NCBI GenBank assembly: GCA_950295325.1 | Contig: OX485803.1 | Coordinates: 62,945,554-63,009,553, forward strand | Source: Polytrichum commune | Taxonomy: Eukaryota > Streptophyta > Polytrichopsida > Polytrichales > Polytrichaceae | Direction: 5' to 3' | Length of the DNA: 64,000 nucleotides | Shown here: piece after piece, positions 30,209-63,886 of the stretch | Layout of the letters: each line of letters starts with the position of its first letter | How positions within the stretch are numbered: the first letter of the stretch is position 1 | Notes under the pieces: model-generated | The model's database searches: none | Told to the model about the DNA's origin: nothing | Seen by the model: the letters and a program-made list of their open reading frames with translations, nothing else | Made by a program: the position numbers and the translations under genes

Positions 30209-30238
30209 TGTGGAGATATACACCCTAACCCAAGACCT
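30209..30238 (+). other. Second, damaged 2A-like motif
   Basis: The codons read CGDIHPNPRP, preceded by HLLLQ. Related elements in animals carry GDIHPNPGP. Here the essential Gly is Arg (AGA), which should abolish skipping; a single G-to-A change of GGA would produce this. It lies 132 codons after the first motif in the same frame. Confidence 0.6.
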
Positions 30239-30867
30239 ATGCCTAACCTACTACAAAAATACCCCCCGGCTCACAAAAGACGACAACATACATATTTCCT
30301 ACTTGGTACGATCAAATTTCAACCCGAATATCAACACCTTGCCAAAACATTCAAACATTTTTTCCAAAATACACACCCCTTACACGAACAAATAACACTC
30401 TCACTCCCATACTTATACAACCACATACAAAAATACCATGCCCACCCCCCCTCACGAATCATATATGCAATAATAGTAACAATTAGCCCCTCTACTATAG
30501 CATGTAACTTGTACCTACAACAACAACCAACACATAACTGGACATCACAAATATTAGAAAAAATGACCAAACTATCTAACCCGCCGGAACGACACATAGA
30601 CACCCCACACCCATATACGCAATTTTGTAACATATTTAATGATACAATCAACCCCGCCAACACAATACACAAAAAATTATATGATTACATCCACTTACAT
30701 CCCGACTCACTTAGCATACAAAATTTACAGGAAGCATTCCCATACCTACCAAAGCAACTTATAACGGAAGCCTTAAGATACAACGAACCCATAAACGAAT
30801 ATACACATCCTAATCCACCCATACCCATCCCACCATCACCATCCGAACCAATCCCACTAACAAGTCT

Positions 30868-31640: not shown

Positions 31641-32579
31641 CACTCATCGCTAGAACACCAATTATAGCATCCGAACCACCACCAAGAATTCTCAACCTTA
31701 TCCCAAAGGAGAAAATTGAAGACTTCCACACCAAATTCTTTGAAACTAACTCAACTCAAATTGATGAGCTCATACTATTATTAAAACATAACCAACTAAC
31801 AAATGAACAATGGCAATTAGCATGTGACTCACTAAACACCCTCACCGACAACATCACCAACATCGTCTTAGAATCATGCAGTGCCCCACCCATTCCCACA
31901 TTGCCAAACCGAATTGCTAACCAAGGAGGCTATCTCCCAAAGAAGACACAAAAAACTGGAAACTACACTTATCCACCTACCACCTCATCCGGAAGGCAAT
32001 TTACACCATAAAAAACAACCCGAACTGGCGCACCCACCCCATTATTACCCAAGAAATACACAATCATATTCACACTAGCATACCTCCACCACCAAACCCC
32101 TCTCTCCCACACAACACATGGGTGAATGCCCTAGCTAAAATTGCAAAAGAAGCTAAGAACAAAGCCCGCAAAATCATCACCGACTACACCACCAAACAAA
32201 TTAAAAAAACCATATCAAAATATCAACAACTCTATGATAAAAGTCCCAATACTATCTACAGAAAAGTTTTTAAAAATACCGACACCCCCCACTCGATTGC
32301 CTCATATATAGGCACAACAACATTCTTACCAACCCAAAAGACATCGCACAAGAAATACATGCCCAACAATCAATCAGTAATAGACCAACTGTCCCAACCT
32401 GCCATTATCAACCAGACCACCCACAACAATGTTGTCAATGCATATGCGGAGTCAGACAATACCCGTGGCATGATCTGAATGGATATGCCCTGGAAAAAAG
32501 AGGCGAAGCATCAACTCCCATGCATACATACCTAGATCAAGGAACATATGACATATGCCTCAAAAATTTAACCAACGAG

Positions 32580-33410
32580 AAAATCCCTGGATCCGACAAA
32601 ATACCCAATGCCATATTAAAAAATATGCCACCCAGATTTCACACACTTCTATTGCTATTTTTTACTCACTGCTACAAACAAAAACAAATCCCCGCATCTT
32701 GGAAAACAAGCCTCACAAACTCTTATATAAAAAAGGCAACCCCCACCACCTTACTAACCATAGACTAATCGCACTCGCTAATACAATTTACAAACTATTT
32801 ATTAGTACACTTACAAGCATATTATCCACGTACGGAGAAAAATATCAAATCCTACACAACAACCAAGAAGGCTTTAGGGCTGAACGATGCACCACACGAC
32901 AATTACAAACCCTCATAGCGGCATTAGAAGATGTAAGACTTACTACTCAAGATATTTACATATTATACATCGATTTCAAAAACGCCTTCGGATCTATTGA
33001 TCATGCCAGACTTCTCGCCATTATAAAGGACCTAGGCTACCCACAAGACGATGTGGCCTTAGTAGGCAATATCTACTCACAATCCACTACCACCTTTAAC
33101 AGAGAACATTTTGATCAAACAAAACTCATACCCATACAACGTGGCACTATACAAGGTGACACCTTGAGTCCATACATTTTTATCATATTTATTGAACCAC
33201 TCCTACAATGGCTACAACGAGGTAACAATGGATACACCTTTCACACCTCTAATACAAAACTACGCTCTGCAGCCTACGCAGACGACCTGGCCGTAATAGC
33301 CAATAATTTGCCATTCCTCCAACTCCAACTAAATAAATTGGACAAATTCTGTGAGTGGGCAGGTATGGACCTCGGCATCCCAAAATGCGCAATCACGGAT
33401 TGCCCCAACA
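32580..33410 (+). other. Reverse transcriptase domain of LINE ORF2
   Basis: Signatures in order: PGSDKIPNAIL, a HRLIALANTIYKLF block, QEGFRAERCTTRQLQTL, YIDFKNAFGSIDH (near 32964-33002), QGDTLSPYIF (33152 on) and AYADDLAVI (YADD at 33275-33286). Both catalytic Asp of YADD and the first catalytic Asp in YIDF are present. A frame change near 32735, at a run of A, lies between the first two blocks. The blocks are those of LINE reverse transcriptases, not of LTR elements. Confidence 0.92.
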
Positions 33411-33547
33411 AAACAAAATTAAACCCCCAAGCCTTCAAAACACACATAAAAAATATCAACATAAACTTTAGAAATCAACCCATACCTATCCTAAGCCAAC
33501 ACGAGCCATATATTTATCTTGGAATTAATCTAGTCCCCTCACTATAA

Positions 33548-35695
33548 TGGAAAACTCAAACACACATAACAACAACTAACCTAATCAAACAATGCAAGCT
33601 ACTAACCGCATGCCCAGCCACCATGAAACAAAAAATCCAAATGATTGACACAGTCATAAGAGTTGGCATCGCCTACAATTTCTACGCCGTTCCATATTCA
33701 CTCCCGCCATTAAGAAACTCGATAAACGAATAATCGCCCTACACAAAACTATATGCGGCTTACCGAAATGCATGTCCAATGCGGTCACACAGCTACCACA
33801 AGATATGTTCGGCACACAAGCCTTTTCACTCAAAAATGCATACCTTACATGTATAGGTGAACAACTTATTAATGCCCTCAATGACAAAGGGCGACTAAGA
33901 AAAATATATAATGAATTAACTAAACACATACTTGCCAAACATGGCGGATCCCTTAAACTACCACGCATATCCCGCCAAGATTGTATCCGATCACCAATTA
34001 CACGCACGTTATTCTTACTCAAAACAACTAGTGGCATTCACCTCAAGAGCCAACTCGAGAAATTTCCCCTCCTCCCCACACCCTTAGAAACCCAACGGAT
34101 GCACCAAGCACAAACCATACCAACACTAACTCCCACACTCTCCCTTAAATACCTACATAAATTCATCCTCCACAACATAACCGAACTCAAGCACATAACC
34201 CACCCCAACGGCACACATCTTATGACAAACGATGACTTCAAACATTACTATGGTACACTCACTAAAACAACACAAGCCGCCATAAAACAAGCCCGAACTC
34301 TTTTTTGCGAACCACCGTGTCATAACCCATGCCTAAATAATTGCCCAACACATACCCTATCAAACATCCTCAAAAACCCTTACAAAATACACAACCACCA
34401 CATAGACACACGATTAGAAAGACATAATGCACACCTACCCACACCTCCACCTCCGGAATACCCGAAGCCACCCTCGTATATACAAAACAACCACATACAA
34501 TATCCAATTCACTCTATAATAAATGACCGCCCCCACACCTACAAAGATAAACACAAAATTACCAAAAGGTATACATCCTACCTATGCCAATGGATACTCC
34601 CCCACGAAACCATATACAACAAGTGGCTTCCCCAAAAAGAATTGTTCCCATGTAACAACCAAAACACCATAAGCCATAACATTCTACTTCTAACACAATA
34701 TTCTACCCACAAACAAAATCAACACTTCACCAACATCTTAAAATCACACTTTAATGAAGAACAACTAAGAGACACTAGATACATCCCCCCCCCCCCCCCC
34801 CCCCACAAATTATAACCCTATGTCATGTTAATATCAACGAATGTAACCCAGATAATGACATCGCCTGCACTCAACACACCATCCAAAGCCAACATAGTGT
34901 AACACACATATACGACAATGATGGTCGTCACTTAATTACCATCCCCGAACAAAGACTACAATGGTTGTGGGAACAATACCAAAATGCATTACACATACCG
35001 CACAATCTCAAACCCCCCACACAATCATTCAAACAAGAAGTTGTATGGTTATACCAAAGGTACAAATACCGAATGCCCAAAAGTGACCCCCTCAAACTAT
35101 CACAATATACACTCCCAAATGCCATCATTAACCATATTATAGACTCCTTCCATATCACACATTCATATTTTTCATCACCCGTCACATGCCCTACCACGCT
35201 AAGACAATTCTCCTCCACTTTCTCCCGAGACAAAGTTTTCAGGTAAAGAGGAACGGCATTCCAACACAAATGGACAGGTAACGGGTATGCCCACCCACAT
35301 ACAGAAACACACATCCAACAAGCCCTTCACTGGGCAAGACTTGCAGCCCACAACAACCCCGACACAATTACAATCCTTATAACAACTGATCCAAATTGGT
35401 ATAAGAACCTTCACCCTCATGAAGGCCCTTTCCCGGACTCATACGTCATCACGCACTTTAAAGCAGACACCATTACATACGAAGAACCCACGATACCCCC
35501 AGAACTACAAATCGAACCTCGAATAGAAAGCCGTGACATTAGAATACTATGTATACACCACAAAACCACGTCCATCGGAACCACAAGATATGCATGTTGC
35601 ATGAACACTATCGGCAAATTTCTACAAATACCTACTATATTCAACACAACCGCACCACCCACACCAATGAACACCTCAGTAAACCGTAGTAAGAA
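33548..35695 (+). other. Large unassigned region between RT and RNase H
   Basis: About 700 residues separate RT from RNase H, more than is usual. The first part (to about 34260) may be the RT thumb and a linker. It is followed by a Cys cluster, CEPPCHNPCLNNC (34308-34346), that could bind zinc. A Trp/Tyr-rich stretch comes next (LQWLWEQYQ, VVWLYQRYKYRMP), then a block with HWARLAAHNNPDTITILITTDPNWY and later ADTITYEEPTIPPEL. The last block has the look of a Rossmann-like strand followed by conserved aromatic residues. A decayed methyltransferase-like module is possible, but I cannot support it from motifs. Confidence 0.5.
34785..34804. repeat. Poly-C run (20 C)
   Basis: A 20-base C homopolymer inside LINE ORF2; the reading frame changes across it. 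Shorter C runs lie at about 25208, 26149, 28986 and 35709 in the same element. Confidence 0.9.
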
Positions 35696-35800
35696 ATGGG
35701 CCCAACTCACATACCCGCCCCCCCCCCCCAACCCCTAACCCATAATACCACTATTCCACCAATCATAAACCATGACATATGCCTACCCCTCAAATACCCA

Positions 35801-36250
35801 CCACAATATTGTTATTATACCGATGGGTCATTTATCCCACCCAAAGCAATAACCCAAGAACATTGGAGACGAGAAAAGGCAGGATATGGAATATACAACC
35901 CTTTTAAAAACCTTAAAATTTCAGAACGACTACCAGGACTCCAAAATATACTACGAGAGGAACTGATGGCTATCCACCACACCTTATGCCTCCTCACCAC
36001 CACATACCGAAATGAACCCGCGCACATTTTCACAGATTGTCTTAATGTTTTATACCTCATAAACACACAAACAAAACATCCAACCTCACACAATAGTCAC
36101 CTGGACAAGAAGATACTTGAATCAATTATTAAGATGTTACAATCCCGCACACAAACCACCACACTACATAAAGTCAAAGCCCACACGAATATTAGTGGCA
36201 ACTAGCAAGCGGACAAATTAGCCAAAATGGGATGTGAATTAGAACATAGA
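35801..36250 (+). other. RNase H domain of LINE ORF2
   Basis: YYTDGSF (TDGS at 35819-35830, first catalytic Asp), REELMAIHH (Glu), IFTDCLNVLY (second Asp) and KVKAHTNISGN-stop-QADKLAK mark a type I RNase H. The final block normally reads G-N-E-x-A-D. Here the Glu codon has become TAG (36203-36205), consistent with one G-to-T change. The enzyme would remove element RNA from the RNA-DNA hybrid. Confidence 0.9.
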
Positions 36251-36596
36251 GATGCCCTAGCCACGTACGAATACGCACACCCCACGCCATACTACCTCCA
36301 AAAAGGTTGGTGGCACTCAATGCAAGATACACCAGATAAAGGCCCCATCCGGCACCTTGGCAAATACATCACTAAATACGACAGAAAACATAACCTAGCC
36401 CTCATAGCAACTCAAACACACCAACTACACAAATGGCTCGATAATAAAGATATTGACAAAACACTATCAAATGATTTTTGGAACAACCCGATTATCACAG
36501 ACAGACAAAAAACATGCCTAGTCAAATTCAGAACCGGACAATACATGGGACATGCTAGAAAACAACTTCGGAAGAAATGCATACCCCTCACATACG

Positions 36597-37271
36597 TGCC
36601 CCATATGCAACGCACAAGAAGCAGACACATGGTTATATGTACTCCTCAAATGTAAACAACAACACATTCACGCACTAATAACCAAAAGACATAACAAAGC
36701 CGTATGGGAAATACGCAAACTTCTCATCTCAAACAAAAAGACAATATACTACACACTCATGAATGCAGGTACATATAATGAGCTCCCCCAAGAAAACACA
36801 GTACCATCATGGTTACTTCCATGCACATGTACCACCCAAAGATGTCACTGCAACGTTAGGCTCAAACCTGACATATTATGCATACTAGGACACCCATATA
36901 AGTCCCCACCACCAGAAGCACCCACACCGGAAATTACAGTTCAATTCATAGAATTCACATAGTGTAATGATAGATTCTCCACTGAAACCATAAATCAAAA
37001 AATTACAAAATATCAACCACTCATAAATAATATTATCGCAAAGGGTTGGAACGTAGCCCCACTTATTGTATTAGCATCTGGTGCTAGAGCCACAACTCAC
37101 ATCCCCTCAATGAACGAACTTGAAACAAAGCTTAAACTTCCTACATCACAAATTAGGAACACATTCAAACAACTTAACATAATTACCATACAATACGCAC
37201 ACTCAATATTAATCCACAAAAGACGAATAGAAAATAGACAACCCATCACAGATCTACAAAATCATAATTAA
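36597..37271 (+). other. Zinc finger, RHN and PD-(D/E)xK-like (REL) endonuclease module
   Basis: CPIC (36597-36608) begins a zinc-finger-like block ending in LLKC (Cys at 36651). The His of the CCHC pattern is Tyr (TAT at 36636-36638), one base from His. KRHN (36684-36695) follows at the usual distance. Then come LKPDI (KPD at 36864-36872) and FIEFT (Glu at 36951-36953), followed past a TAG by NQKITKYQPL, which supplies the Lys. CCHC-RHN-PD-(D/E)xK is the hallmark of the restriction-like endonuclease of R2-type non-LTR elements. The order here, after RNase H at the extreme C-terminus, is unusual. Confidence 0.7.
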
Positions 37272-37679
37272 AATTAGAGAGGGGTAGTGGTCAGACCACT
37301 AGTTATTAAGTTACCACCTATAGCTCAGAAAGGCGGGGAGTAGCCAGCTGGTTGGCATAACTTTCCTGCCTATGATTAATTCACTTGCAGCACCAAGTCA
37401 AAGTGTATTGCACTAACACGCTCAGACGGATTCAACGCGAATCGAACCCGGACCGTATTAATATAACACGCACGTCCTTATCCAACCAACCTTGGAACCA
37501 TGACTTGGCGACCAACTATACAACCAACCACCACTTATACTCCAAACAAATACACACGCTTCCCGTCTCAAACAAAGTAGCAAGACCCACAAAATTCTAA
37601 ATTAAAACCCATGCACCCTACACACACCCTTCCCCCCCCCCCCCCCCCCGGTTCAACCGGTTAAAACATCAGTTACTAA
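37272..37679. other. LINE 3' flank with tRNA-like sequence and poly-C
   Basis: No gene. This stretch follows the last ORF2 codon and may be the element's 3' UTR. It holds a plus-strand A-box-like block, TAGCCAGCTGGTTGG (near 37340-37354), a minus-strand tRNA-like segment (listed separately) and an 18-base C run (37632-37649). Confidence 0.5.
37427..37502 (-). ncRNA. tRNA-like pseudogene or SINE head
   Basis: On the minus strand an A-box-like GGTTGGTTGGATAAGG is followed about 35 bases later by a B box, GGTTCGATTCG. Possible acceptor-stem halves GGTTCCAA and TTGAATCC pair at six of eight positions. The T-stem does not pair properly, so this is not a working tRNA. It could be a tRNA-derived SINE head. 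Confidence 0.35.
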
Positions 37680-37815
37680 CATAGTGTCTACTCCCTCCAA
37701 AGGGTGAAGTAGTATTACACCCAACACCACTACCCTGGGGTACGGCCACGGTTGTCCTACGAACAAACACTTTATTCACTCCGGTCCCTAGTAGGGACCG
37801 GAGTTCTTCTTCTGC
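37680..37815 (+). mobile_element. SINE 3' fragment
   Basis: It shares ATAGTGT, a CTCCAAAGGG-like block, AGTAGTATT, ACACTTTATTCAC (37767-37779) and a terminal hairpin, CCGGTCCCTAGTAGGGACCG plus G (37781-37801), with the fuller copy at 46335-46720. The hairpin is followed by a short TTC repeat. Only the 3' half of the element is present. Confidence 0.7.
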
Positions 37816-37921
37816 TAAGCATCATGTACTAATCACATGTCTCGTATCTAGGAGAATTAAATTGTTTGGAAAAGTCAACCATTTACAACCCATCTACCTT
37901 AGCCCTCAAGTGTAGCACCGT

Positions 37922-37949
37922 TTTATATATATATATATATATATATATT
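37922..37949. repeat. TA microsatellite
   Basis: About 13 TA units in AT-rich DNA downstream of the SINE fragment. Confidence 0.9.
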
Positions 37950-40900
37950 TTTTGGCAAGTCTACATTTTATGTAGAAATCGCCTATCTAAAAAGGCATCA
38001 CATTAACCCCTAACTTCCCAAGTAACCCATTTTGAGTAGATGGATGAATTCTTCCCTACGTTAACCCCACCTAACTCATTCATCCGCAATCAAGAAACTA
38101 TAAACATCAAGCCAACATGAATATCTACACATATATTGAAACGAGCCATGTAATTTGGAGATGATTAGAATGTGGAAAAAAATGTCGAAGTGGGAAGTGG
38201 TCATATTTTTGTTGTGTTGGGAGCTCATACATGTGAGGGTGTTGACTCCAATCACTGGTTGTCACTCCAATGCAAACTTTGCATGAACATCAATGATGTT
38301 ATTTTGGTAAAATTGATTTTTTGTGTTCATATAAAAACAACATTTGTGCTCACATGGACTATTCAATTTGACATTTTAACACTCTTTAATTTTCAAGGAA
38401 TTTCTTGCACATATGTGATTAGAAATATGGGCCAATTTATACACCCCAAATGCAAGGTGACTAGCTTCTTGTGATTTGCACATTTTGGCATGAGAATTTG
38501 TGAAGGTGCATCATTATTAAGTTGTTCCCCATGTAGTGGATAAGACAAGCATTATGCTCATTTTCCAAGGGAACTTGGTTGGACAAAGGTCTATTTTGAT
38601 GGATAAAACATGACATTTTCTTGTGCATGCCTTTCCTTTAGTAATTATAATGTTAAAGTACAAATGGTTATTCATGCCCAATATTTCCCTGTGAAATAGC
38701 TCATCTCCCATGTTTTAAGATCCTACGGTTAAATCCAATTAGAAAATATGTCCATGGAATCTCCACAACCAACATTGAGTGAAATGCACTCAAAACTACC
38801 CTTTCATGAGCTTGGGAAGTTAAGGGCCGGTTCACATGGGGTCGCAAGTCCCAACTTTTGAGCCTCATGAAACCATTAAAATATTTTTTTAATTATCATT
38901 AAAATTTGGACCTAGATTATTTTTATGCAAAATATCTGCGGGACTTGTGTAGAAAGTTGGGTCTAGCTTTTTGGTCGACCCAACTCTAAACATAAGGACC
39001 ACTTCGCACACGAGCCAAGAGCCGTGACCATGAAATTTTGAGAGCCCAAAAGAAAGTGTCCAAAGGGCGTTTCAACACACCCCCAAAATCATGTAGTGTG
39101 GTCACGGACCCTCAAGTGTAATGTGAAGTCATATGTGACCGGGCCCTCAACCAAATGCTATTTCAACGAACTTCTATTTATACGTTTCCTCACACATGAT
39201 AAAATAGAATAAATCAACGGTTGTGAGCATTCAAAGTGCCATGATCTCCCGGTTTTGTGTTACGCCTACCTCCAAGAGGTGGTTTTTGAAAATAATGCAA
39301 GTGACCATGAAACACGATCCATTCGATGCCATGTAGGAGTCTATGTAGACTTTACATCCATCTTGCATTCACATACTCCGTCGGTCCCTCAACTGTAGTG
39401 TGAAGTAGCAAACTTGGACTGGCTCCGCCTTTTCCACCAATGAGAGTGCTCGAAGCGTAATGGTCACGGGCTCTCAGTCTCGCGTGTGAAGTGGCCCTAA
39501 GTCCCAAGCCTCACCTCCAAACAATGTTGCCATGCCTTGTCATACTCGGGACTTAGGACTTGGGGGAGAGTCTTACTAAAATAAGGATATAAATAATACA
39601 TAAAATAGTATGCCAAAATGGGGTTGATTCCGCCTGTTGAGACGCGGCAGCTGTGGAAGGAGGCCCTTCAGGGGAGGGGAGCCGGGGTCCAACCTGACGC
39701 GTCACATGCTTCCGCCACCTGGCGCCTTCTGTATGGCTGATCAGGGGGTATTTCCTGCGTGGCCTTCCAAGTAGGCAATCCTTCGTGGCGTCCAAGAGCC
39801 TAACTTAGGCGTGGGAGGAGGCGAGCCTGGGACTGCAGTCAGGAACTTAGGGCCTTTTTGGAATCCCCAACCTTGAGGAATCTTCATTTTGGGCTAATTG
39901 TGGCAAAACAACACACTATACTAATTAATATTGTTGGCTCTGTCTGTGGGACAGAGACTATGCATCAACTTCTTCGTTTCAAGAGCAAATTTCCTAACCA
40001 CTTTGTGTTCACACTTGGACGTTACTTGTTCTTGTTATTTTGGTTCTTTATGTATTGTGTATGTTAACTATAGTTTTTATATATATATACAAGTGCTTCC
40101 TAAAATGCATTGAAAGAAATCTAGTTAACTATAGTTAATGTGGTAGTTCTTGATTATTTATTTTAAAAATTTCGGGTGATAAATGAGTAGCTTCAATCCT
40201 TGACCTGTATTTGAGAAGAAGGTGCACGAAATCCAAGAAAGGTTTGGTATAGTGAATAGCCATGGATTGGCGTGAGCAAAGTAATCAGCTACAATTGTAG
40301 TCTTTCATAGCAAAGGACAGAGCCTCACGGTTCTACCGTTTTCTTGTTTTTAGAGTCATATGGTGCCACTACTATGCCGCTATGGTAACTTTTGTAATGA
40401 CATTTCTTATGAATGAGTTTACAAGTATTGTCATCCCAACTTACTTTTAGTTCATCCACTTTTGGTTTGGTAGATCCTGCATTTTATCAATTTGTTTAAT
40501 GAAACAATGTCATGGGATGATTGAAAATTGGATGAAAAATCATTTAGTAAGTGACAACAATCACACTTTTTTAATGTGTAATACCAAAAAAAAATTACAA
40601 GGAAAGTCAAATGATGTTAGGTTTACATTTAGTGTTGGTGACGCTACACATGCAATTTACAACTGGCATTGAGCAAGACAAGTAGAATTGGTGACACTAT
40701 ACACAATATTTAGTGTATTTATGGGCTCACTCAGGTCTGTCAAGATGATTTTGGAACTTCTTAATTCGGGATTGGGGTGCTTTTGCTTTCAAATTTGTAA
40801 TTAAATGGGGAATCAATAACTCAAAACGTGTGTATTGGCGACATATGCCACAAAGAATTTTAAAGGTGTTTCAAAGTTACAAGCTTTCATAAATTGATCG

Positions 40901-50260: not shown

Positions 50261-53200
50261 ATGGCACGCGCTCCAGCTAGTCTGCATACTGTATCCAGGT
50301 AAATCTAATTGAGTGATCTTCAGATGTTAAACCTCAACAAAACCCTGCTAGAAAGTCATGTTTACTTCTATTTAGTGGGAGAGGTTGCACAATACTTTGA
50401 AGTGGTAGATGAAGAACCAAACAAATTTTAAAACAAATTGCAATCAAGAGACACTCGTGTTGCTGGTTCTGGGAGGGTCAACAGGTTGCTGGAGGGACAA
50501 CCTCCAGCCAGACTTAGATGTCTCGTCAATGCTTGTCGATGCCATTTGCAACACCTTGGACACACTGTGAATCTTGGAGATGAAAGGCTGAGAGTCTTAA
50601 GTGACAAGTAAGTCATGGCTAGGAAGCTTGTCTTGTTTCACAAGAACCAAGAGGGACAGACATAATATCACGCCATATTCAGAGTCACACAGGGTAGGTG
50701 TTCGGATGTCCCGACTAAGGGTTATTTTGTTAATCCCGCAAAGTTACATGAAGTTGGAAGGTTCTACTGAACCGTGCATATTGAATGGACATGCAATAAG
50801 TGATGTGATGGTTGTCCCCCCCATAGATACTATCTAAATAATTTTCTTCTCTTGTTAAAGCATTCCAGTAGAAGTAAACCCTAGAAGGGTTTATGAGAGA
50901 GTGAACCTAAAGCATTTAAAGCTGATGCAGGTGATATGTGTTGGTCCTCTCAGCATAATTGATAGGTCAAGGTCTCAACTTTTTGCCACACTTTGGTGAT
51001 GTTTGTGTTCACAGTACAAGAAGTTTCTGGAGAGTAAGTGTTAGTGTGTGATTCTTTAGGTTGTAGAGATTTGCTGCAGCAGCAAAACATGCTGCTAAGC
51101 TTTTATTTCTGTGGTGCTGGTAATGTCTGTGCAGAACGTTGTGGCAGTTTGGTGCTGCAGCTAATTGCAGTGAAGAGCAACTGCTGCAACATGGGCAGGT
51201 GAGACCAAAGTATTCAGAGGCATGCAGCAATGTCTTTGAACGATCCTGCTGTGGTAGATACACAAGTTGTTGCAGTGAGCGGGTTTGGAAATTTAAACTG
51301 TTCTCTCAAAGTGAATAGGATCGTGTCCGTATCCAAGAAATGTGTAGAGAATTCTACCACGACGCGCATTTGCGATCAACTTACAGTCTTAAACAATAAC
51401 TAAATCAACAAGGAATATTTGTTGCCTTTCTGTAAGAAAATGAACAACAATAACTTTGGTCATGTGAGATTCTAAGATGCTGCTGCCCATCACTTAGTAA
51501 AGGGTATTGAAGAGCTTCAATGAGCTTGTCAATTTGAAAATGTAGTGTTAGTAATTGCTTTGGAATGCATCTTATGAGTTGACTTTGTAGTGAAAATTTC
51601 GTTCAATTTCTGAATGAAATATCTTCTTTTGCAGTTACCACTAATTTAGTCATAGAACTGATATGAAGTTCCAAGTTGGTGTTTGCAGGTGCCTAAGGCG
51701 TCACTGTATGGTAAGGTGGACCCTGTGTCTGTCTCATTTTCTCGAGGCAGCTTACATGGAGGAGCACACAGATTCTCAGCAATTGCACTGTCAATGCCTA
51801 CTATAAGGTGCTTTACCACTGCAGATAATTGTACATCTCGCATGTCTACGCACACACCATGATTCCAGGATTACTTTTCCATTTTTGTAATGTAATGGAT
51901 GTCAACAGAGCTTCCTGGGTTTGCCAATGCAATAGAATTCCACATTAAGGACGATATGCCTGCCTGCCTTTGCAATTAAATGGTTCAAAGAGCTTTGTTA
52001 TCTATCTGGGTTCTATGATGCAGGAGAGGCATGCATCCAAGGACAAGCAGCCGAGCTGTAGCTGAAACTTCAGAAACACGCCCTCCTAAGTCTGGTGGGT
52101 CAATTGTGACGGAGGATGGAGGAGGCCTTTCTGTTATGGATGAAGCACCTGGGTCTAGAGCAAATTATAGTGTTGATGCTGAGGGTGAGAGTGCCTACAA
52201 TGTGACGTTTGATAACGGAAGTAAACCTGGTTTCACTGTAGTTGGGGTTGAAGGAATGGACCAAGATAATCTTCTCATGGATGTGACGACGAGCTTCTTT
52301 GAAATGGGCATCAGGTTGGACAAACATGTACTTAATCCATTTCAGATACGTGTTGTTCCTAATGAGGCAGTATTGGGCATGCCCATGACTCTCTTAGCTG
52401 GAAATGTTTATTCTGTAGCTGCCTTCATTGAATGTGGTTCACTGTAGCTTCACGAGGCACTGGATTCTGTCGCTTTTGTTCTCTTCCTGTTTTCTCAATA
52501 GTTCTCCTTTTTGTGTTTATTTATCCTCATTCCTTCGTTTCAAACCTCTATAAGTGTACTTTTCCTGTAACTTGTTGCCTCTGCCTGAGCAGTGTGAAGA
52601 GTGCGCGAGTTTTATCAAAGAATAATCGCGTTGTGGACGAGTTTGTTGTAATGAAAACTGAAACCAAGACGGCTGTAAGCGAGAATGAGTGGCTTTTTAT
52701 CAAAGAAAAAATTATAGCCAAACTTAAACGAAGAAGTGCTCTTAATACTCCTGACGGTGACCCCCAGCTTCTGGAACAGGCAAGTCGCTTGCTATTATCC
52801 TTGTCTTAAGTGGTAGATAGTTACTTGTATTCAATAAACTCCTTTTGCTGCTTAGGAAGGAGTTTGTGGAGAGGATGGATTTGGCATGATTATGTTCATT
52901 ATGTAGTGCAGCATGTGCAGGATTGGCATTGAGTTTATGGCAGGAATGCAGGTAGAGGGCTATTAGTAGGAGAGCTTATAAGAAGGGTGACATGGAGTAA
53001 CTCATTGGACCCATTGAACTGAGCAGGTGACATTCTTGACACAAACGTTGGACAAAGCAGTTTGTGCAGATAGCCAAGAAGATGTGCTTGAGGCAGTAAG
53101 TATGAGCTCTTATCCTTATGTGTTCCATGCTTGGTTGGTTCTGGCTGTTATATCTGATGTCTTCTTTAGTTGCTTACCATTTTTTAAGGAAAAGACTACA

Positions 53201-56200
53201 AAATTGCAAAATATGTTCAGGAGAGAGTTAACTTAGAGGATGTCCTTGTGTTCTTTATTTCAATTTCTAGTTCTGGGGTTTTTTGAGAAAGATGCCTCAT
53301 GAAGACAGAGTGTTGCTGAGCTTTACCATCTTGAAGTTAGAACGTCTGCCTTTCTGCTGTGATTGTGTTTTGGAACTCAAAATATGATAAAACCCTACAT
53401 CCATGTAACCTGTTGTAGTTTGCTTTTGCAAATTAAAGAGTCTTCCTCACTGCCAGATTGTGTATGCAATCATCTATTAAAAGTCAAGTGCTTTTTGAAT
53501 GGCAGTATCGAATCAGCCAAAGAGAATGAGTAGTCAATGAGAGTCATTTCTGTCCTTTGCGCTCCATTTTAGGCATGTTATTTATGGAATGGCATGTTAA
53601 CCAGATTGCACAAACTGTGTTCACATGAGTATATGGGTTCTGTTAATACAGGCAACTTTGCTGCAAAAAGGATTCAATGAGCTGCGTCAGAGAGAAGATC
53701 CTCGTAAGAGAGCGGAGTTGCTGCGTTATATTGAAAAGATGGACCAGAAGAAGGTGTGAGCTTTGTTGTGGTCAATCTATTCTGATGTCTCCACTTGTGA
53801 AAGTGACGAGGTCAACATAAAGCTCATGAAACAAAGTGGATTGTTATCATATGATATGAAGTTTGTGCATATATCATGAAGTTAATACAGTCTGATTAGT
53901 GCTGAATCAACAATGTGTTCTTTGAAAGCTTTATGTAATCTCAATATAATTGCGACTTGTAATGAGTGAGGCAGAAGACCAACAAAGGCTCTGCATTTGT
54001 CTTTATTCCTTCTTGACATGAAGGCTTAAGAACATGTATGAGGTCATAGGCGTGTAACATGATTTGTGCATAACATAGATCACAATCAGTGATCCAGAGT
54101 GAATTTCTCTTCTGCCTTCAGTTTTTTGGTCTAACACAAGACTATTTGCAGATGACAGCAGTTGTTCGACTATTCTACTTGTATTCATCTCTTCTAAATG
54201 TGGCAGACGAGGCCCACAGTCATCGACAACGTCGCGAGATGGTAGGCTGTTATTCATATGAATCTTTAGTTGGCCATCTGTTGTCATTTGCCACAAGGTT
54301 GTACCATCACGGTGGTAGTCTTGGCGCCAAGGTTAATGAAGATGACGCCAAAGTAACTTAGTGAAAGTATATGCCTACAATGGACGTGCCTGTGATGAAC
54401 TTGGGTGGTGGTGGTTATGAATGATTACTTGCAATCTAGTGGGGAGATTCTAACTTTGTCAGTGCAGGTGTTTGCCAGCAGAAACGCTACACCACTATGG
54501 CCTGCTTCATTTGATCACACTTTGAGAACCTTCAAGGAGAAAAATGTGAAAGCTGCTGATCTTCAATCTTTGCTGAATAGGACCGAGGTAAGAGTGTGTG
54601 CTAAATGTGGTGGTAGATTTTGATGTACTTGTGAAGTAACAAAGTCATTTTTGTGGATTGATGGGTGTTGATTGTGTTTGATCGATCCAGTATTGGGTGT
54701 GTCCATGGCAGCGAACTAGGTTGCAACTTGTTGCTACCTTGCAGAATAGTCAATTTGATCACTTTCTGGAGCATCATATCTGAAAGCATGAAATAATCAC
54801 CAAGCTATGTCTGAGCCAGGACGAAGAAATGAGGGTATGGAGGAAAAATGGTCTTTGAAATAACTTTGTTGTAATGTTTGAAAATGTCAGTACAATCCAG
54901 TGTTTACAGCGCACCCTACAGAGGCTCGGCGTAGAGAGGTTCTAACATGCCTGCATCGCATCTTCCTTTTGTGCAATGATCGTGAGGTAATTTTTCCTTC
55001 TCCAACTTGCCATCAAGCCTGGGAGTCACTTCACTCTTGGATGTAGATTTCACCCGAGTTGGTTATTTGGAGTCTAAGTCTTGGAACATCTTGAAAGCTG
55101 CTGCCTGATTTTAGTGGACTTTGTAGCAAGCCTACCAGTTGATGCTAAGGTTTGTCAACTTGCTTCTCATTTGTGTTGTCATCCTGTCTCGTGTTCCTTT
55201 GAAAGGCGAATGTTTCTTATGTTCATTCAAGTCCTTCTATCCAGGTTCAATTCTAGTCATTACCACTTTGACCTTTTGGAAAGACTTATATTTTAGTTAT
55301 ACAGATTTTAGTATTCCCTGTATCAGTTGGGCACATTCATGTAAAACCCAGGTTATACTGATATCAATGTACGTGCAGGATCCAAGGCTTAGTCCAGCTC
55401 AGAAGGCCGAGGTGGAGGCTGAAGTGGAAGCTGAGGTTTGTGTGACTACCTTTTTCACTATACAGTTATCCAATTTGAAAATGTACAATTGTACAAATGC
55501 GAAGAAAAAAGCTAATTGGTACATGTACTGATGTCCAGATTGAGATACTTTGGAGGACAGATGAGATGAGGGCCACCAAACCTACCGTCCTGGAGGAGAT
55601 TGTGACTGGACTTGATTATTTTCGTTACTCTCTTTTCGAGGCTGTGTGCACCACATATCGATATGCTGAGAACTCTATCAATGTAAGTATTCAAGGTGTT
55701 GATTTTTAGTTTCATAAACTGTATGGAGATAAGAGGTCGGGCGTTTTTGACTGATTTCTCTTGACATTATTGCTCATGATCACAGGCTATCTATCCGAAT
55801 GAAGGTCTGGTTATACCAAGCTTCATCAAATTTGGTTCCTGGATTGGTGGTGATCGTGATGGTAATCCTTTTGGTGAGTACACCAACCTAAGTACCTGTT
55901 ACACATGTGTGCTTTTTTCTAGCTGCTGTCAAATGATTAAATTAAGGTCTTAATGCTTGGTAGTAGCTACGGGTGTGATAGTTGTTGGTTGGTTCCTCAC
56001 ATCTTTCCTTAAAACATGAGTGTTCATACATTTCTCAATTCATGACTTGGGTTGTGCTTTTATGCACAAGGATTTTCTGATCTGTTTGAAGGTAGTAAGA
56101 TACAAAATTCGTTACAATTGGTGGTCCCTGCCACTTGCACAGTTAAATTGCAAGATTGATTGATGTTTATAGCTGCATCTAGTCAGCATCCTCTTATTCA

Positions 56201-59200
56201 TGATCCATCTGAAACAAATGTCCAGAATTAGTGTTCTTGGAATGTAATTAGAAGTGAAGATCTTGACAAAACTCAGGCAATTTTCTCTTTTACCTCTAGA
56301 AAGGCCTGACTCTATGTATTCTGACATAACTGGAACATTGTTTTCATTGAGGCAGTGAAACCTGAAACAACAGAGATGGCTGCCCTGTTGGCGAGTCGCC
56401 TCGTCCTGGCGGAATATATTCGTCGTGTCCGTGCTTGTCAGGTAGAAGTCTGCAGATTATTGATTGTACCCAGATTATATGAATTGCACATGATGCTACT
56501 AAGACATCCTGAGAGAATAATTAATTAAGTTTTCCTTTTTTCCTTTTTGCATTCAAAAGTTGATGAACTTTTGGCCCAAGCCACAACATTTTTTCTTACG
56601 TTATCGTGTATCAGGGTCCAGATATTTCTGGAGATAGACATTAGCAAATGAAGAATAGTGATACAAATGCTCATCATGATTATAGTGTTGAGAATTTATA
56701 GACCCAAGTTGGGTGTTGTTTCACAAACAATTTACTTGTCTTGCAACATGGATTCACGAATCATATGTGCTTATGCAGGACACATTGACACACTCATTAC
56801 TCATTTGCAAAGTGTCAAAAGACCTGATAGACAGTCTTGAGAAGGACAAAAAAGTGATGGAGGAGATCCCAGGGATTAAATTTGACAGTTCGCTTTATGA
56901 ACAGGTAGTCAGTGTTTGAGTTGGCATGCTGCTTTGACAGGTGCAATGCTTGTTTTAGATTGTGTGCAGTAGTGGAATAATTTGAACCACCTCGTTTATG
57001 CCATTAGTAGAAAAATATTGCATGCCCTTTAGCGCAGTTTGCATTACATGCCTTTCTGAAGGAAAAATAATCCCGACTGTCTGAAGTTTTGTAAGGCATT
57101 CAACATTTCTTAATCATAGCCAAACAGTGAGGGAAGATGTTCCAAGTTCCTAGGGTGCCTTTGTATTGAAGGCTGATATTTTGAGAAACAATTGTTTACG
57201 CATCTCTATGCAGGAGCCATACAGATTGAAGTTGAGGGTTATGAGGCACCGACTTGAGCAAAACCTACGTAACGTGAATGCCCGCCTGCGGGAATTGGGA
57301 AAATTAGGCCAGCATGATGAAGTGCGTTACTAATTTGCCACTCTTGATTTACTCCAGTTCAGAATGATTGATACAATTAGGATAATCATGGCAACTCATT
57401 AACACCTCACATGATGCCAATGGCCCAAAAGTTTGTGATGTCATTTCACAAAGGAATAGATTTGATGCATGATGATTTCAGATAAATACAGAATCTGCAT
57501 CTTGCAACTTACTTGTTTCTAAGTGGTACTAGGGTTGTATGATGGTTTTGGATTAAAATTTAGCTTTGTCTCTTGAATTGTGAAATATTTAAGCATGATT
57601 TTGGCTTATTCCGAGTTGGATTGTTGATATGTCAACTGGGGTGACCCATGGATGGCAGTTGCTGATAGATATTGAGTTCAATATCGATGAGATAGCAGGT
57701 TTGGACCCAAAGAAGGATGCATATCTCAGTGAGAAGCAATTTCTACATGATCTGAGACTCATTGATGTGCGTGTTCTCAACACTACTGTTTTGGATATAA
57801 TATGTCTCCAATTAGTAGCTTGCAGGCATATCTGGTTATGAACCATCTGGTATATCAATTTGGTGAAGTCATCTAGAAAATTCATCCTGTGTGAGGGATT
57901 TGTTGAATAACATCCTCTACCAGAGCAGAGATATTGGCATGGTTAAGGAGGTTTAAGTCTGTTGTGAGATCTTATTGATAGCAGAAAATTAGGTGATGGT
58001 AAATCAACATAGGTGGACTAAGTCACATGAGTGGCGAGTCTCTTCTTTTCTGACCTTTTCAAGAATTTGCAGTCTTCTTTGAGAGCAAGTGGAGATGTTT
58101 GCTTGGCGGATAGGAGATTGAAGGACTTGATTCGACTGGCAGAAACTTTTGGCTTCCACTGTTGTTCTCTTGACGTCCGGCAGGAATCAACTGTCCATTC
58201 AGAGGTAAGCAAGCTTCTATCATCAACAAGTTTTAATTTTAGAAGTCATATGATTTGTAATGTTGACTAGAAGACCCCCTTTTAGTGGCAAGGTCCTCTT
58301 TTCGTTTGCATAGCTGGACAGGTTAATTTAATCATAATTTGGTTTTTTAGGAGTGTCTTTTCTTAGTTAGAATTCTCTTGTTGTGATTAAGTTGTATCTT
58401 CTGCATCAGAAGTATTAAGAGTAAGCTTAAACCTTGGTGGTTGGGTGTACCCTCCTCACACTACAGCAGTCCCTGCTGATGTTTTGAGGAGCTTCCAGAG
58501 AAGGAGGCTAATTTGCTCGAGTCAAAATAAACTGAGTCATTAATAGAAATGCTCTTATTGAAAAAAAGTATCTAAAATCAAAATGTGGAGCCTGCACCCG
58601 AGTCCCCTGTGATTGATGTCAACATTAGGTTTGTACTGTCAAAGTTGTTGTGATAGTCTATGTGTAGCTGAACTCTTTCAACTGCTAAGCTTCGCCTTTA
58701 AAATTTGATAGTGCATTCCATTTTCCAGCAGTAGGAACTGATGCTTGAGGATGCTTAGCGAAGTTGCTGGAGTTTGACTATATTTTAACCTACTATCTGA
58801 AAGACAGAATGGTCTTTACTTTTAGAAATTTCTCTCCATGAGAGTATGTCTTGTAGCTACTTGAATCAACTAGTTGTCTTTCAGAGGCACTCAGAATCGG
58901 ATGTGGGGTGTTGTAATACTGCAGGCAACAGATGAAATCATGCGGCTTCTAGGATTGACTGATAAGTACAGCTCTCTTTCTGAGGCAGAGCGGATGAAGT
59001 TACTTGCACACACAATTGCAACACCACCTCCTGTTGACAAGCTTGAGGTTTGTTTATTTTGTCTGAACAATCTTCATGAGCCCTGTAGTACATGAAGGTA
59101 TCTGGTATAATACAGTATTCATTTAGGAGCCAAATGTGATAGCAGCTCTTTTTACTTGTCAATGAACGTTTTATATTGCACTCAATTCCTGTACCGGCCT

Positions 59201-62200
59201 TGAGTAATTCAGGCATCACTATCTTAATAGCCAGATCTTTATTACCCTCTTGCAAAATTAGTTAGAATGAATCTGATTGGATAGAGTAGGTCCCTATACT
59301 CATATTATCAAATTTACTGTGATTTGATTTCAGAGCCTATTCGAGAAAATGTCAACAGGAACAAAGGAAGTGGTGGAGCTTTTTTTCTCATGTGCACGTA
59401 TCATGGACAATATCTCACACAACTCCATTGCCTCCTATGTTATTTCCATGACTCGCCAAGCATCTCATGTTATGGAGGTTTGTTTTACTTACTCGATGTC
59501 ATCAGCAAGAGGACCTTGTCTTTATTTATTTGTTTTACAACCTGTTCAACCACTGCAAGCTATACATTACAATATAGGTCATAGACAGTTGACAAGTTTC
59601 AAATTTGTATGGTTTGTCATTGATCTAGTGGTCAATCTCTATGGCCAGATGACAGTTAGTTGGGACTTTGGTGGGAGTATTGATGACTACTTTACTTCCT
59701 AAAGGACCAAAGGTTCATGGTTGAAATTGACCGATTCAATTGATCATATTGTGAAAAATTAATAGATCAGATGGGGCAAATTTCACTTTCTGAGAAGCAG
59801 TGCATGTTTTGGTCAAAAAGCAATTGAAATTGAACAAAAGTAAATGCCCTTTATGATGTACCCAAGATTGTTAAACCAACAATAGAGACCCAATCTGGGT
59901 GTCTTGGTCCTTTAGGGTTAATCAAGAATATGCCTCTGAGCTTTACTGTCTGGAGCAGGTATTATTTTTGGGATGGTTTTCATGTAAGAACTTATTGGAG
60001 AAGGAGGCATCTGGTGAATGGAAAGCAAGGCTCGTGGTTGCCCCTCTTTTTGAGACCATCCCAGATTTGGAGGTACTTTTGTGAAAAATGTTTGCCAGTC
60101 TACTTACGATTGGTACCTATGGTCCTTTTAGAGACCTAGCTATAGGAAAATTATAGTTCATATATTATCACAGGACTCAGGTGTGATTTAAGGAGGCAAG
60201 TCATTCGATGGGGATCAGTGCCTAGTTATCTTCTATCCTGGATTTTGTATACTGTGCTTATGTTTAACAGTTCAAGATGCTTGTGTTCATAGACATGTCA
60301 TTCTTGGCCCTGAATGTATAGCTTATGTAGTTCCTACAATTTTTTGGCTTGTAACTCTGATTGCTTATAGTTACTCATGAGATGAAACTCATGAACGGCC
60401 TGCAGAACATGCCAGAGGCTTTGGAATCGCTCTTTGGAGATGAGACTTACAAGGGTATTTTATTGGCCTCTGGTGGTATTCAGGTAGATATTATACCCTG
60501 TTAGCATCGTACACCCATGTTTCTTTTAAAAATTGAAAGCATGAGATTTGCCAGCACACTTGTCTTCTGATTGGTTAATAAGTGAATTGGTTCAAGGAGG
60601 TTGATGCTGAGATTCCCATCTTACTTTTTCAATCTTCATTTCCAGAAAGTGTGACAGACGACAAATGACATTTCTAATGCACCTGAGTGTGAATATTTGA
60701 GAGAATTATCCTACTTTAGATGATGTGGTGGGTCTTGGTTGTGGGATTTCTTTGATCCTTTACATCTGCTGTATAAAAGGATGTGGTGGTTCTTCCTTTG
60801 GTCGTTTGATTAGTTTCCGTTCTGTTCAGAATGCACTCTATCGAGACCTTCATGCTTTAACACTTATTTCAAAGGGCAATGTTTATTGCTTAAAGTTTCA
60901 GCCTTACTGGGAGCTGTATTCCAATCTAGAATCTCCTAGACCTTCTATGAAATCCATCTGTATTTACATTTGGATGAATTCAACAGTCAAGTAGATGAGC
61001 AAGTTGTAGTCTAGGTTTGACTAATTAGATGTGGCTTTACTTCGATGAGCTTCTCATAAATTAATTAATATAGTAGAGATTTATCTCATAAATCTGGGTG
61101 GGGATGGGAATCCAGGAGGTAATGCTTGGCTACTCAGATTCCTGCAAGGATGGAGGTATAACGGCAAGTGCATATAACCTTTACAAAGCTCAATGTGTGA
61201 TTCAAAAACTCACAAAGGAGGCAGGAATAAAGTCATGCATCTTCCATGGTCGGGGTGGCACTGTCGGCCGTGGAGCTGGCCCAACTCATGAGAGTATTCT
61301 TTCACAGGTATTTGTTAATGAAATATGTTGTGTTTAAAGTGAAGAAACTCACTATGCAACTCGTTCAGCTCACCTCTGCATCAATGCACCTACAGGTCGC
61401 TTCATGCTACCCATATTGAAAACAGGAATCCCATGCGAAACAAAAGATCATCTCATAGTACAATCTCAGTAAAATCGTGGAGTTTTCCAATTTTCATACA
61501 AACACAAAGTCAAATCTACCCATTTTGTAACTTACCACCTGCAAATGTATGTTCTTGAATCAAACTGTTCTAGTTTACTTGAGATGTGCTTATGGAGGAC
61601 TTTTCATTATTATTTTTGTTTAGATTTGAATTTCTTGTTGTTCTGTTCTGGCGTATGGCAGCCTCCAGGCAGTGTTGATGGACAAATAAAGTTCACAGAG
61701 CAAGGAGAAGTCATTACCTATCGCTACGGCAATGCTCAGACAGCTGCATATGAACTAACTGTATGTGATTGATTTACTGGAACCAATGGAGTGTGAACAT
61801 TTAGCATTCGTAGTTTTTTGGTTCAGATTTACTCTCTTGCTACTAGAATGGACAAGTGTCCATTTGTTTATTCTCTTGTATACGTGATAATGGGGTTAGA
61901 CAATTTGCCATAATGACCAGTGCGTATGAAACATCAGTGCCTGTACTTGTATAGTATTTAGACTTAGAGTTGAACCAGGGCTTCACTTTTGTAATTTCTG
62001 GGTCATTCAGGAAAAGAGTGTGTAGAACATTCATACTGATTGCTGTCCCCTTGATCGAACTGGTAGGTTGGCATTACCGGGCTCATGAAGGCAAGTCACC
62101 CTGCCACACGGTCTCCTGATGGCCTCTATGAAAAGGTGAGCATCTTCTATTTAAATGTCTTGAAATAGCACATACTGGTCAGGGACCTAGTGATGTTAAA

Positions 62201-63886
62201 TGTACTAGTTTGATACATCTGAACTATATGGTCCGTCTATAAGTAATCTCAGGCAATGTCTGATAGTAAGCAGCTTTGCTAATGCTAAGTAGGTCGTGAT
62301 CAATGCTTACTTTAAATGTCATTTCCGGCCTTTGTGTCAAGGAGCAACAGTCCTTATCATCTAGTCTCTCTGAAAGCAAATTTTGTTTGGTCAAATATAA
62401 GTGATGATGCCTCCATTCATGTGTGTACCAGTTTTTCCCTATCATGGAAGAGTTGGCAACAGCTGCAGAAAGGTCATACCGTGATCTGACAGACGAAACA
62501 GAGGGGTTTTATGATTATTTCTACGAATCAACTGTAGTCAATGAGATAAGTCTCATCAACATTGGCAGTCGTCCTGCTCGCCGCAAGGCAACAGTGCGAG
62601 ATAAATCCTCTTTACGTGCCATTCCTTGGGTGTTTGGCTGGGCCCAGGTATATCTTCCAACCAGTTACCCAATGTAGCTTGTAAAAATTGAAAAATAGTG
62701 GATAACACCTATGTTTGCCAACACTAGCATGAATTATAGAGTCCGGTTGCCTGCATGCTACTGCCTCAACAAAGAGGTGGACTCTTTCTCACTGCTGTAA
62801 CAGGTGCAAATCTTTCTAACAATCGCAAGTAGGGCAACTTGATTGCCCATTGTTCCTCCCTACTCATTGTGTTGTGTTGTTTGTGGGCAACAGTCAAGGC
62901 ATACTCTTCCAGCATGGTATGGTGTGGGGAGTGGCATCACATCATATACACAGGATGACCCAAAAAGGATTCAGGAGGTCCAACGTATGTATAAAGAGTG
63001 GCCCTTCTTCCGGACATTTCTTTCAAATGTCCAGGTATCTAATATTTCTCACCTCAACTTCATAGCTGAAGTAGACAACTCTGCATTGAACGTCAACTGT
63101 GACATGGATAGCCATTCGGGTTCATGAAAGCTTAATAATTGATGGGCTTACAGAGGTTGACTGGTTTCCAACACACAGGCATTGGGCTAATTAGCTGATA
63201 CCTCTCGCAAGTATGTCACTTTGTGTCTTAAACTTCAAGATGGCGAACTGAATCTGTAAAAACTTTGGCTAGTTGGAAGAGGTAGGACAAACAAACTGTG
63301 TCTGGACATTCATGATTTAGAAACTTGGCATGCTTGTATGTGAAACAGATTGATAAAATGCTACTTCTACTTACCAGAGATACTTTCCCTAATCAACATT
63401 GGTTGTTGCTTGAACAGATGTCTTTGTTCAAAGCTTCAATGGAGATTGCTCAAGAATATGCACGCCTTTGTTTGTATGTGTCCCACAAAATTAACTTGTA
63501 TTTCCTGTAGTAATTACTTAGACTATATGGCGCTTTTGTGTACTGTTTCAACTTCACTGGGAAACTCAATTTTTGTTTTAGAAAATATTGTCTTCCATCC
63601 TGCAACATGACAAAGTGCAGGCAGTAATGTTAGTTTGTTTTCTAGTTTCCCTGTTGACAACGACTTAGAGGGACGTCCTTCTACCACTATACAAGTTTCC
63701 AGATGTCCTAGAATGAAGTCTCCAAGGTATAGCTGATAGATAAATTTTGAATTTTGTGAGTATGAAGTTTGCAAATTTTCTTACATTCGTTTTTTTATCT
63801 GGTGAATCATTGAATACAGAAATCGCATCACTCAGAAGTTGGTGTTTGATCTAGTGTCACAAGAATATTTCCTCACCAGGGATCAG
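50261..63886 (+). CDS. Phosphoenolpyruvate carboxylase with N-terminal ACT domain (3' end outside window)
   Basis: PEPC adds bicarbonate to phosphoenolpyruvate, giving oxaloacetate. Twenty-nine exons join in phase: 50261-50298, 51135-51198, 51689-51807, 52024-52314, 52593-52779, 53027-53095, 53652-53753, 54122-54241, 54468-54587, 54891-54986, 55379-55435, 55539-55682, 55786-55873, 56356-56441, 56779-56904, 57214-57321, 57659-57766, 58073-58204, 58925-59047, 59334-59477, 59959-60072, 60406-60483, 61116-61307, 61662-61760, 62067-62135, 62432-62647, 62894-63034, 63418-63473, 63820-63886. They encode 1,118 residues; roughly 100 more lie to the right. Residues 1-90 are Ser/Arg/Ala-rich and transit-like. 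ACT domain about 132-215. PEPC from about 228: FTAHPTE with catalytic His378, GGDRDGNP (490-497), [17 protein letters not shown] (843-852) and [11 protein letters not shown] (881-891). The ORF is open in every exon. Sequence choices such as [10 protein letters not shown] and [15 protein letters not shown] recall a bacterial PEPC subgroup. Confidence 0.93.
52024..52779 (+). other. ACT domain exons of the PEPC gene
   Basis: Exons 4 and 5 encode [20 protein letters not shown], then [33 protein letters not shown] and [12 protein letters not shown]. This follows the beta-alpha-beta-beta-alpha-beta order of ACT domains, with the usual Gly at the first strand-helix turn region and the R-V-V-D-E-F strand. 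ACT domains bind amino acids or other small ligands and regulate attached enzymes. Exon 4 ends ATCAG|GTTGGA in phase 2. Reading through that donor gives nonsense, while splicing restores the domain. Exon 5 continues into the first PEPC helix (PQLLEQ). Confidence 0.85.
52780..53026 (+). other. GC-AG intron between ACT and PEPC coding parts
   Basis: The donor is CAG|GCAAGT, the standard rare GC-type donor, and the acceptor is GAGCAG. Splicing joins PQLLEQ to [12 protein letters not shown] in phase 0. Reading into the intron gives a stop within 10 codons. The other introns of this gene have GT donors. Confidence 0.75.

Follow-up and report, generated by a model that had tools for sequence, protein, structure and literature searches.

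A conserved ACT–phosphoenolpyruvate carboxylase fusion in the moss Polytrichum commune, placed apart from the two established types of plant PEPC

The Polytrichum commune DNA analyzed here (the window: 64,000 nucleotides of contig OX485803.1, positions 62,945,554 to 63,009,553) contains, towards its end, a gene that encodes an ACT domain and a phosphoenolpyruvate carboxylase (PEPC) in one open protein, referred to below as ACT-PEPC. The fusion gene is confirmed as real, far beyond what chance would produce. Its coding part in the window comprises 29 exons on the + strand (50261–63886, 3,324 nt) with no in-frame stops, modeled by alignment to the Ceratodon proteins P0002 and P0003. The end of the window cuts the gene: two further exons on the + strand follow in the downstream locus (L009, 145–249 and 767–886), with the last base at contig position C1:63010385, 832 bases further on. 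The complete gene has 31 exons over ~14.6 kb and encodes 1,182 residues, ending in RNTG and a stop codon, in the order N-terminal extension, ACT domain (residues ~132–218) and PEPC. Between the final model and Ceratodon P0003, 933 of 1,178 aligned residues are identical, with few gaps, nearly all of them in the N-terminal extension. The acceptors in the window are AG in all 28 cases and the donors GT in 28 of 29, with a GC donor after exon 5; retention of any of the 28 introns (computed with an earlier exon-22 acceptor) would disrupt the reading frame or introduce a stop. An earlier sequence-only reading of this DNA had correctly counted 29 exons in the window, but its 1,118 residues were reduced to 1,108 by homology. 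Phase 0 predominates among the introns between the in-window exons (23 of 28, including 22 of the 24 following exons 5 to 28).

Exon 1 (50261–50298) provides the start codon and encodes a peptide that aligns with Ceratodon MAHAQASLHTVV. The N-terminal extension continues through exon 2 (51135–51198), which aligns to P0002 and P0003 without gaps, and exon 3 (51689–51807), taken from the homology-based model. Exon 4 (52024–52314; residues 74–170) encodes the remainder of the extension and, by the gene model and a match to GlnD, the first half of the ACT domain, whose first strands and helix 1 begin at residue ~132 (52196–52314) according to the GlnD match and an AlphaFold 2 (AF2) model of Ceratodon P0003. 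The same AF2 model and the gene model place the second ACT half (to ~52734), a linker and the start of the first PEPC helix in exon 5 (52593–52779), immediately before the GC donor. The PEPC domain extends over residues 226–1108 in the window (52756–63886). Within it, residue alignment assigns the catalytic histidine (E. coli H138) to exon 10 (54891–54986) and two motifs (E. coli D543, K546, H579, R581 and R587) to exon 23 (61116–61307), and the gene model places a sequence motif in exon 13 (55786–55873) and the last coding exon of the window, exon 29, at 63820–63886. The assignment of the ACT domain to exons 4–5 and of PEPC to exons 5–29, already made in the sequence-only reading, was reproduced in the homology rebuild. 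Two elements of the draft were changed on homology grounds: the acceptor of exon 22 (now 60406–60483) was moved from 60382 to 60406 (PDLENMP), and a 123-nt exon candidate at 50485–50607 was left out, as without it the first ~73 residues align to Ceratodon gap-free. This candidate, lying between exons 1 and 2, is a frame-neutral open stretch with AG/GT borders that may be unused or an alternative cassette exon. The domain and homologue searches and the first tree described below used the draft protein with both the 123-nt exon and the 60382 acceptor, and the second tree used a version with the 60382 acceptor only.

Homologues were collected with draft-protein residues 165–430 (the ACT domain and the start of PEPC) as the query, and the best 120 of 311 matches were listed; searches with the Mesostigma protein and with the moss's own bacterial-type PEPC were represented by the best 120 of 1,413 and the best 120 of 7,632 matches, respectively. 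Full-length ACT-PEPC was found in Ceratodon (P0002, P0003), Riccia (P0005), Calypogeia (P0006), Marchantia paleacea (P0007) and Diphasiastrum (P0008), in answer to the suggestion that plant proteomes be searched for the same pair of domains. Further relatives carry gene-name prefixes that we take to denote Spirogloea (P0010, P0012), Mesotaenium (P0011) and Mesostigma (P0015), and others are the TRINITY transcript P0009, the MMETSP transcript P0014, the JGI protein P0017 and P0001, P0004 and P0013; the Mesostigma query added P0121 (Chlorokybus by prefix), P0122 and the MMETSP transcript P0123. P0009, P0014 and P0123 are thus labeled as transcripts and hold ACT and PEPC in one open frame, and P0001, P0004, P0017 and P0122 are contained whole or nearly whole in contigs of 3.8–4.6 kb, which, compared with the ~14.6 kb of the moss gene, suggests spliced RNA, or possibly a compact gene in the case of algae.

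These homologues bear directly on whether a fusion could be mimicked by two neighboring genes or by a false join made during assembly or annotation. The sequence analyzed from this species is genomic DNA, and the single non-canonical donor falls after exon 5, both of which would suit such an artifact; but the join lies within one exon, and the same join recurs in 17 database proteins (two from Ceratodon), some of them transcripts, making the artifact scarcely credible. The single-gene fusion with its join inside exon 5, as originally proposed, is upheld by the exon model and by the homologues with both domains in one open frame; in the genomic DNA and database proteins analyzed, none of the outcomes named beforehand as refuting it came to light.

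Judged from these sequences, ACT-PEPC is a conserved architecture across streptophyte algae, mosses, liverworts and a clubmoss rather than the oddity of a single species. No seed plant, fern or Selaginella appears among the named ACT-PEPC rows in the best 120 of 311 and the best 120 of 1,413 matches, and no Isoetes name appears among the matches listed. The same database contains bacterial-type PEPCs of Selaginella moellendorffii, Adiantum, Araucaria and many angiosperms, recovered in the control search with the moss's own bacterial-type query. As a full-length relative should outrank bacterial rows in the best 120, the result points to absence from the groups represented in that control search, with a small gap left by rows that lack an organism name. 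The next matches after ACT-PEPC are PEPCs, the named ones gamma- and betaproteobacterial, which align in the PEPC part only. A scan of genome contigs with peptide patterns from P0007 returned no relatives, the patterns being poor ones.

The in-window part of the protein matches the PEPC family PF00311 with E = 2e-246 over profile positions 3–842 of 919, and the homologue P0003 spans positions 1–919. The positions corresponding to E. coli H138, R396, E506, D543, K546, H579, R581, R587, R699 and R713 are identical in all 29 rows of the alignment, the window protein included, in agreement with the catalytic motifs recognized in the sequence-only reading. At the aspartate site, K773, R832 and R587 are identical in 29 of 29 rows and N881 in 28, P0012 being gapped; residue numbers, and roles as catalytic or aspartate-site residues, follow the E. 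coli enzyme. By residue alignment, then, ACT-PEPC retains the ten catalytic positions and the four of the aspartate site, and the presence of the latter suggests that the ACT domain supplements the usual feedback site instead of taking its place.

Two PEPC types are recognized in plants, plant-type (PTPC) and bacterial-type (BTPC), and the genome (407.8 Mb in 64 contigs, searched for PEPC loci) encodes both alongside ACT-PEPC, with two plant-type loci (L011, L012) and one ordinary bacterial-type locus (L010). The L010 protein starts MTDTTDDIAEEISFQAFDDD and is matched by proteins named 'phosphoenolpyruvate carboxylase 4'; we take it to be AtPPC4-like. ACT-PEPC shares with PTPC the PEPC fold and active site (28–30% identity in structure matches), but it falls in a distant clade, ends in RNTG and not in the plant-type QNTG, and the SIDAQ phosphorylation motif was found in none of its 20 rows by a pattern search that had no plant-type row as a positive control. 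With plant BTPC of the AtPPC4 type it shares the PEPC domain, the ten catalytic positions and the C-terminal RNTG. The differences are that BTPC forms a separate clade and contains a long insert between its GDRDGNP and DxRQE motifs; we know of no GlnD-type ACT domain in plant BTPC.

In the trees, the ACT-PEPC rows form one clade with an SH-aLRT (Shimodaira–Hasegawa-like approximate likelihood ratio test) support of 100 (20 rows in the first tree and 18 in the second, which retained 18/20 clade rows and 14/27 bacterial rows of the first), within a larger group that includes proteobacterial PEPCs. The bacterial-type and plant-type PEPCs are placed elsewhere, together with E. coli, and the closest named relative of the window protein is that of the moss Ceratodon. 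Forcing ACT-PEPC and BTPC to group together costs 289 log-likelihood units and is rejected by the approximately unbiased (AU) test (p-AU = 1.8e-10), for a group that was defined after the first tree had been viewed. Branching within the clade is compatible with plant phylogeny (mosses, liverworts, the lycopod, zygnematophytes, and Mesostigma with Chlorokybus), with several forks left open or moderately supported. Across the clade, identity in the ACT domain correlates with identity in PEPC (Spearman 0.84, from 153 non-independent pairs of 18 rows), as expected if the two domains were inherited as a unit.

These results decide against an ordinary AtPPC4-type BTPC that has acquired an ACT domain and perhaps serves a class-2 complex as its regulatory subunit, a reading that we consider very improbable. 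The features that surveys use to call BTPC are indeed present, namely the RNTG C-terminus (in 19 of 20 clade rows, P0012 differing) and a best NCBIfam match, for the in-window part, to the bacterial model NF000584/PRK00009 (762 bits, under the cut-off of 815). Against them stand the separate AtPPC4-like gene L010 in the same genome, the rejected constraint, and the GDRDGNP-to-DxRQE spacing, which is 156–181 residues in 20/20 ACT-PEPC rows (177 in the window) versus 286–354 in 8/8 BTPC, indicating that the long BTPC insert is missing. ACT-PEPC and BTPC also occur together in Marchantia paleacea, Calypogeia, Diphasiastrum and (by prefix) Spirogloea. With the BTPC grouping rejected, ACT-PEPC is, on this phylogenetic evidence, a third plant PEPC lineage besides plant-type and bacterial-type.

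The nearest PEPC relatives among the matches listed are those of gamma- and betaproteobacteria (Ectothiorhodospira, Thioalkalivibrio, Thiobacillus, Woeseiaceae and others). They differ from ACT-PEPC in covering, in the first search, just 48–66% of the query, corresponding to the PEPC part; most have ~930–950 residues, and longer ones, P0129 (1006 aa) and P0176 (1052 aa), appeared in the search with the Mesostigma query.

Domain searches, which the sequence-only reading had proposed as a check, gave a significant match for the ACT stretch to the C-terminal ACT part of GlnD (6e-11). The Pfam domain ACT_ACR9_3rd was matched at 6e-4 by the full window protein and at 1.3e-5 by the ACT stretch, both under the Pfam cut-off; the window protein stays under the Pfam ACT cut-offs, whereas Mesostigma P0015 passes that of PF01842. 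For the ACT alignment, 16 of the 20 clade rows were used, omitting P0003 (a near-copy), P0010 (insertion), P0012 (incomplete) and P0013 (truncated). All 16 rows match GlnD models and 15 match the ACR9-type Pfam domain, and the alignment profile matches the ACT domain of RelA in the PDB (3.8e-7). From these profile matches, the ACT domain of ACT-PEPC is of the GlnD type. It shares this subtype with the C-terminal ACT domains of GlnD and with plant ACR proteins; unlike them, ACT-PEPC has a single ACT domain on a carboxylase, and the Pfam scan of the window protein showed neither a nucleotidyltransferase nor a repeated ACT domain. In the AF2 model of Ceratodon P0003, the region forms a beta-beta-alpha-beta-beta-alpha unit that follows residues 1–128 and precedes PEPC (strands 131–136 and 144–150, helix 156–166, strands 169–179 and 182–191, helix 200–221), with predicted local distance difference test (pLDDT) values of 61–90 in blocks of 10 residues. 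The fold searches were dominated by PEPC chains and hardly probed the ACT part. PF26956.1 is listed in the precomputed annotation of P0015 (Mesostigma), P0121 (Chlorokybus) and P0017 (JGI protein) and did not appear when P0015 and P0017 were scanned locally with Pfam.

Several features of the domain weigh against a role in sensing. A glycine in the beta1-alpha1 loop is typical of ligand-binding ACT domains, but that position is Gly in 6, Asn in 9 and Asp in 1 of the 16 ACT rows, and its replacement in 10/16 means that ligand binding could be altered or lost. The ACT domain is also less conserved than PEPC (65–67% versus 85% identity between the window protein and Ceratodon). Together with the intact inhibitor site described above, this faster divergence would be compatible with a structural or oligomerization module, or a degenerate remnant, that senses no metabolite and leaves regulation to the usual aspartate/malate site. 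Yet the domain has been kept from Mesostigma to mosses, being complete in 18/20 clade rows, the window included (P0010 with a 28-residue insertion); the other two are incomplete sequences, P0012 being without part of the ACT domain and P0013 beginning after it. Moreover, N9, L28, V43, A46, D57 and F59 (ACT alignment numbering) are invariant in 16/16 rows. We regard a non-sensing domain as unlikely, while treating it as a serious alternative.

The N-terminal extension, which measures ~130–155 residues in P0003, P0005 and P0008, is poor in acidic residues: their fraction in the first 60 residues is 0.05 in the window protein (final model) and at most 0.07 in 15 of the 19 clade rows counted (all but P0013, the window protein entering as its draft model), compared with 0.13–0.15 in the body of the protein. 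It is variable, with 49–51% identity between the window protein and Ceratodon and 14–19% to the liverworts (draft model), and residues 1–128 of the P0003 AF2 model are of very low confidence. A low-acid, variable and poorly modeled N-terminus fits an organelle transit peptide, and ACT-PEPC is probably organelle-targeted, with the plastid the most likely destination. The opposing case is a cytosolic enzyme in which the extension is a disordered spacer only. P0005, P0011, P0122 and P0123 lack a low-acid N-terminus (the Riccia P0005 value is 0.12, and P0122 and P0123 begin close to the ACT domain), P0017 has no initial Met, and targeting is deduced from sequence features. Given the low-acid N-termini of the majority and the length, rapid evolution and low model confidence of the extension, a cytosolic location seems doubtful.

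Taken together, the reading that we favor, and hold to be rather probable, is that of a single-chain, organelle-targeted (most likely plastid) PEPC with an N-terminal GlnD-type ACT sensor, a member of a third lineage among plant PEPCs. An enzyme related to the PEPCs of some gamma- and betaproteobacteria would have reached the green lineage ahead of streptophyte diversification, acquired the ACT domain and, in most cases, a transit peptide, and been inherited vertically thereafter, with later loss, as far as seen, in seed plants, at least some ferns and Selaginella. The PEPC part would convert phosphoenolpyruvate and bicarbonate to oxaloacetate under the usual aspartate/malate brake. The ACT domain, joined directly to the first PEPC helix, may bind an amino acid (glutamine is the first guess, from GlnD) and so constitute a second allosteric control, the extra layer suggested in the sequence-only reading, whichever the sign of its effect, by which the supply of carbon skeletons, as oxaloacetate, would follow nitrogen status. 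Some observations tell against parts of this scheme. Support for the bacterial sister group is in part middling; long branches (E. coli, P0149 and others) and an arbitrary root make the deeper branching unsure and limit the claim of transfer; and E. coli positions 437 and 438 are kept neither in the ACT-PEPC clade (mostly Pro, Ala, Ser or Glu) nor in its bacterial relatives.

The suggestion of a sensor is consistent with what is known of related proteins. The C-terminal ACT domains of bacterial GlnD sense glutamine and 2-oxoglutarate, and plants have plastid ACR proteins similar to GlnD, according to the available portions of PMC12702975. A chloroplast PEPC of rice, Osppc4, is described in part of PMC9358456 as supporting ammonium assimilation; it resembles ACT-PEPC in the plastid location proposed here, and as a plant-type PEPC it would have an independent origin. 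The GlnD-type ACT domain, the transit-peptide-like N-terminus and the role of the rice enzyme together point to a plastid enzyme by which the supply of oxaloacetate would be adjusted to nitrogen status. The fullest form of the proposal, which we put forward tentatively and would not yet back against the alternatives, is a third, hitherto unnamed class of green-plant PEPC: a plastid enzyme derived from proteobacteria, whose own GlnD-type amino-acid sensor couples anaplerotic carbon fixation directly to nitrogen status, which the earliest streptophyte algae already had, which mosses, liverworts and lycopods retained, and which disappeared towards seed plants.

No description of ACT-PEPC or of a third PEPC class was found in the open PMC literature, as far as its texts were available, a search that most subscription papers, including Deng 2016, fall outside. 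The sequence-only reading, which knew of no plant PEPC of this design, is to that extent matched by the printed record, but the design is not a one-off; what that reading overlooked is that the architecture is conserved and old, that its PEPC lineage is distinct from both known plant types, and that its N-terminal extension resembles an organelle transit peptide. In the sections available, PMC6093901 mentions an ACT kinase and PEPC separately; PMC4196954 distinguishes two PEPC types, with a C-terminal (R/K)NTG as the BTPC criterion; PMC12301720 and PMC9358456 also have two types; PMC8784020 uses a domain database to divide the genes of 17 plants between PTPC and BTPC, with additional 'PEPcase superfamily' genes listed; and PMC8566536 works with two PEPC clades and describes strong expression of a 'bacterial-type' PEPC in Isoetes. 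Classification by the C-terminal RNTG or by PRK00009 would probably place ACT-PEPC in BTPC, a warning that the C-terminal rule and domain-database labels can merge two separate classes as 'bacterial-type'. Some 'bacterial-type' PEPCs surveyed in early plants could be ACT-PEPC, perhaps among them those of Isoetes linked to underwater crassulacean acid metabolism.

Few allosteric enzymes of plants have been studied as much as PEPC, and an old third lineage with its own sensor domain would alter the two-type picture. Through ACT-PEPC, carbon supply and amino-acid status would be linked directly by a protein, and bryophyte models such as Marchantia and Ceratodon would gain a testable regulator. 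The enzyme also raises the new question of why seed plants can do without it.

Elsewhere in the window, positions 24000–38000 form a long block whose + strand is rich in A and C (GC skew to −0.55, AT skew to +0.43) and which contains open reading frames resembling those of long interspersed nuclear elements (LINEs): a 962-aa frame with no Pfam match (26135–29023), an endonuclease frame (31019–32011; PF14529, 3.6e-7) and a reverse transcriptase frame (32552–33547; PF00078, 3.7e-27). The strand bias of the element is strong. Near the start of the block lie two tandem repeats, one of ~24 bp in 18 copies (23969–24410) and one of 93 bp in 2 copies (25622–25810).

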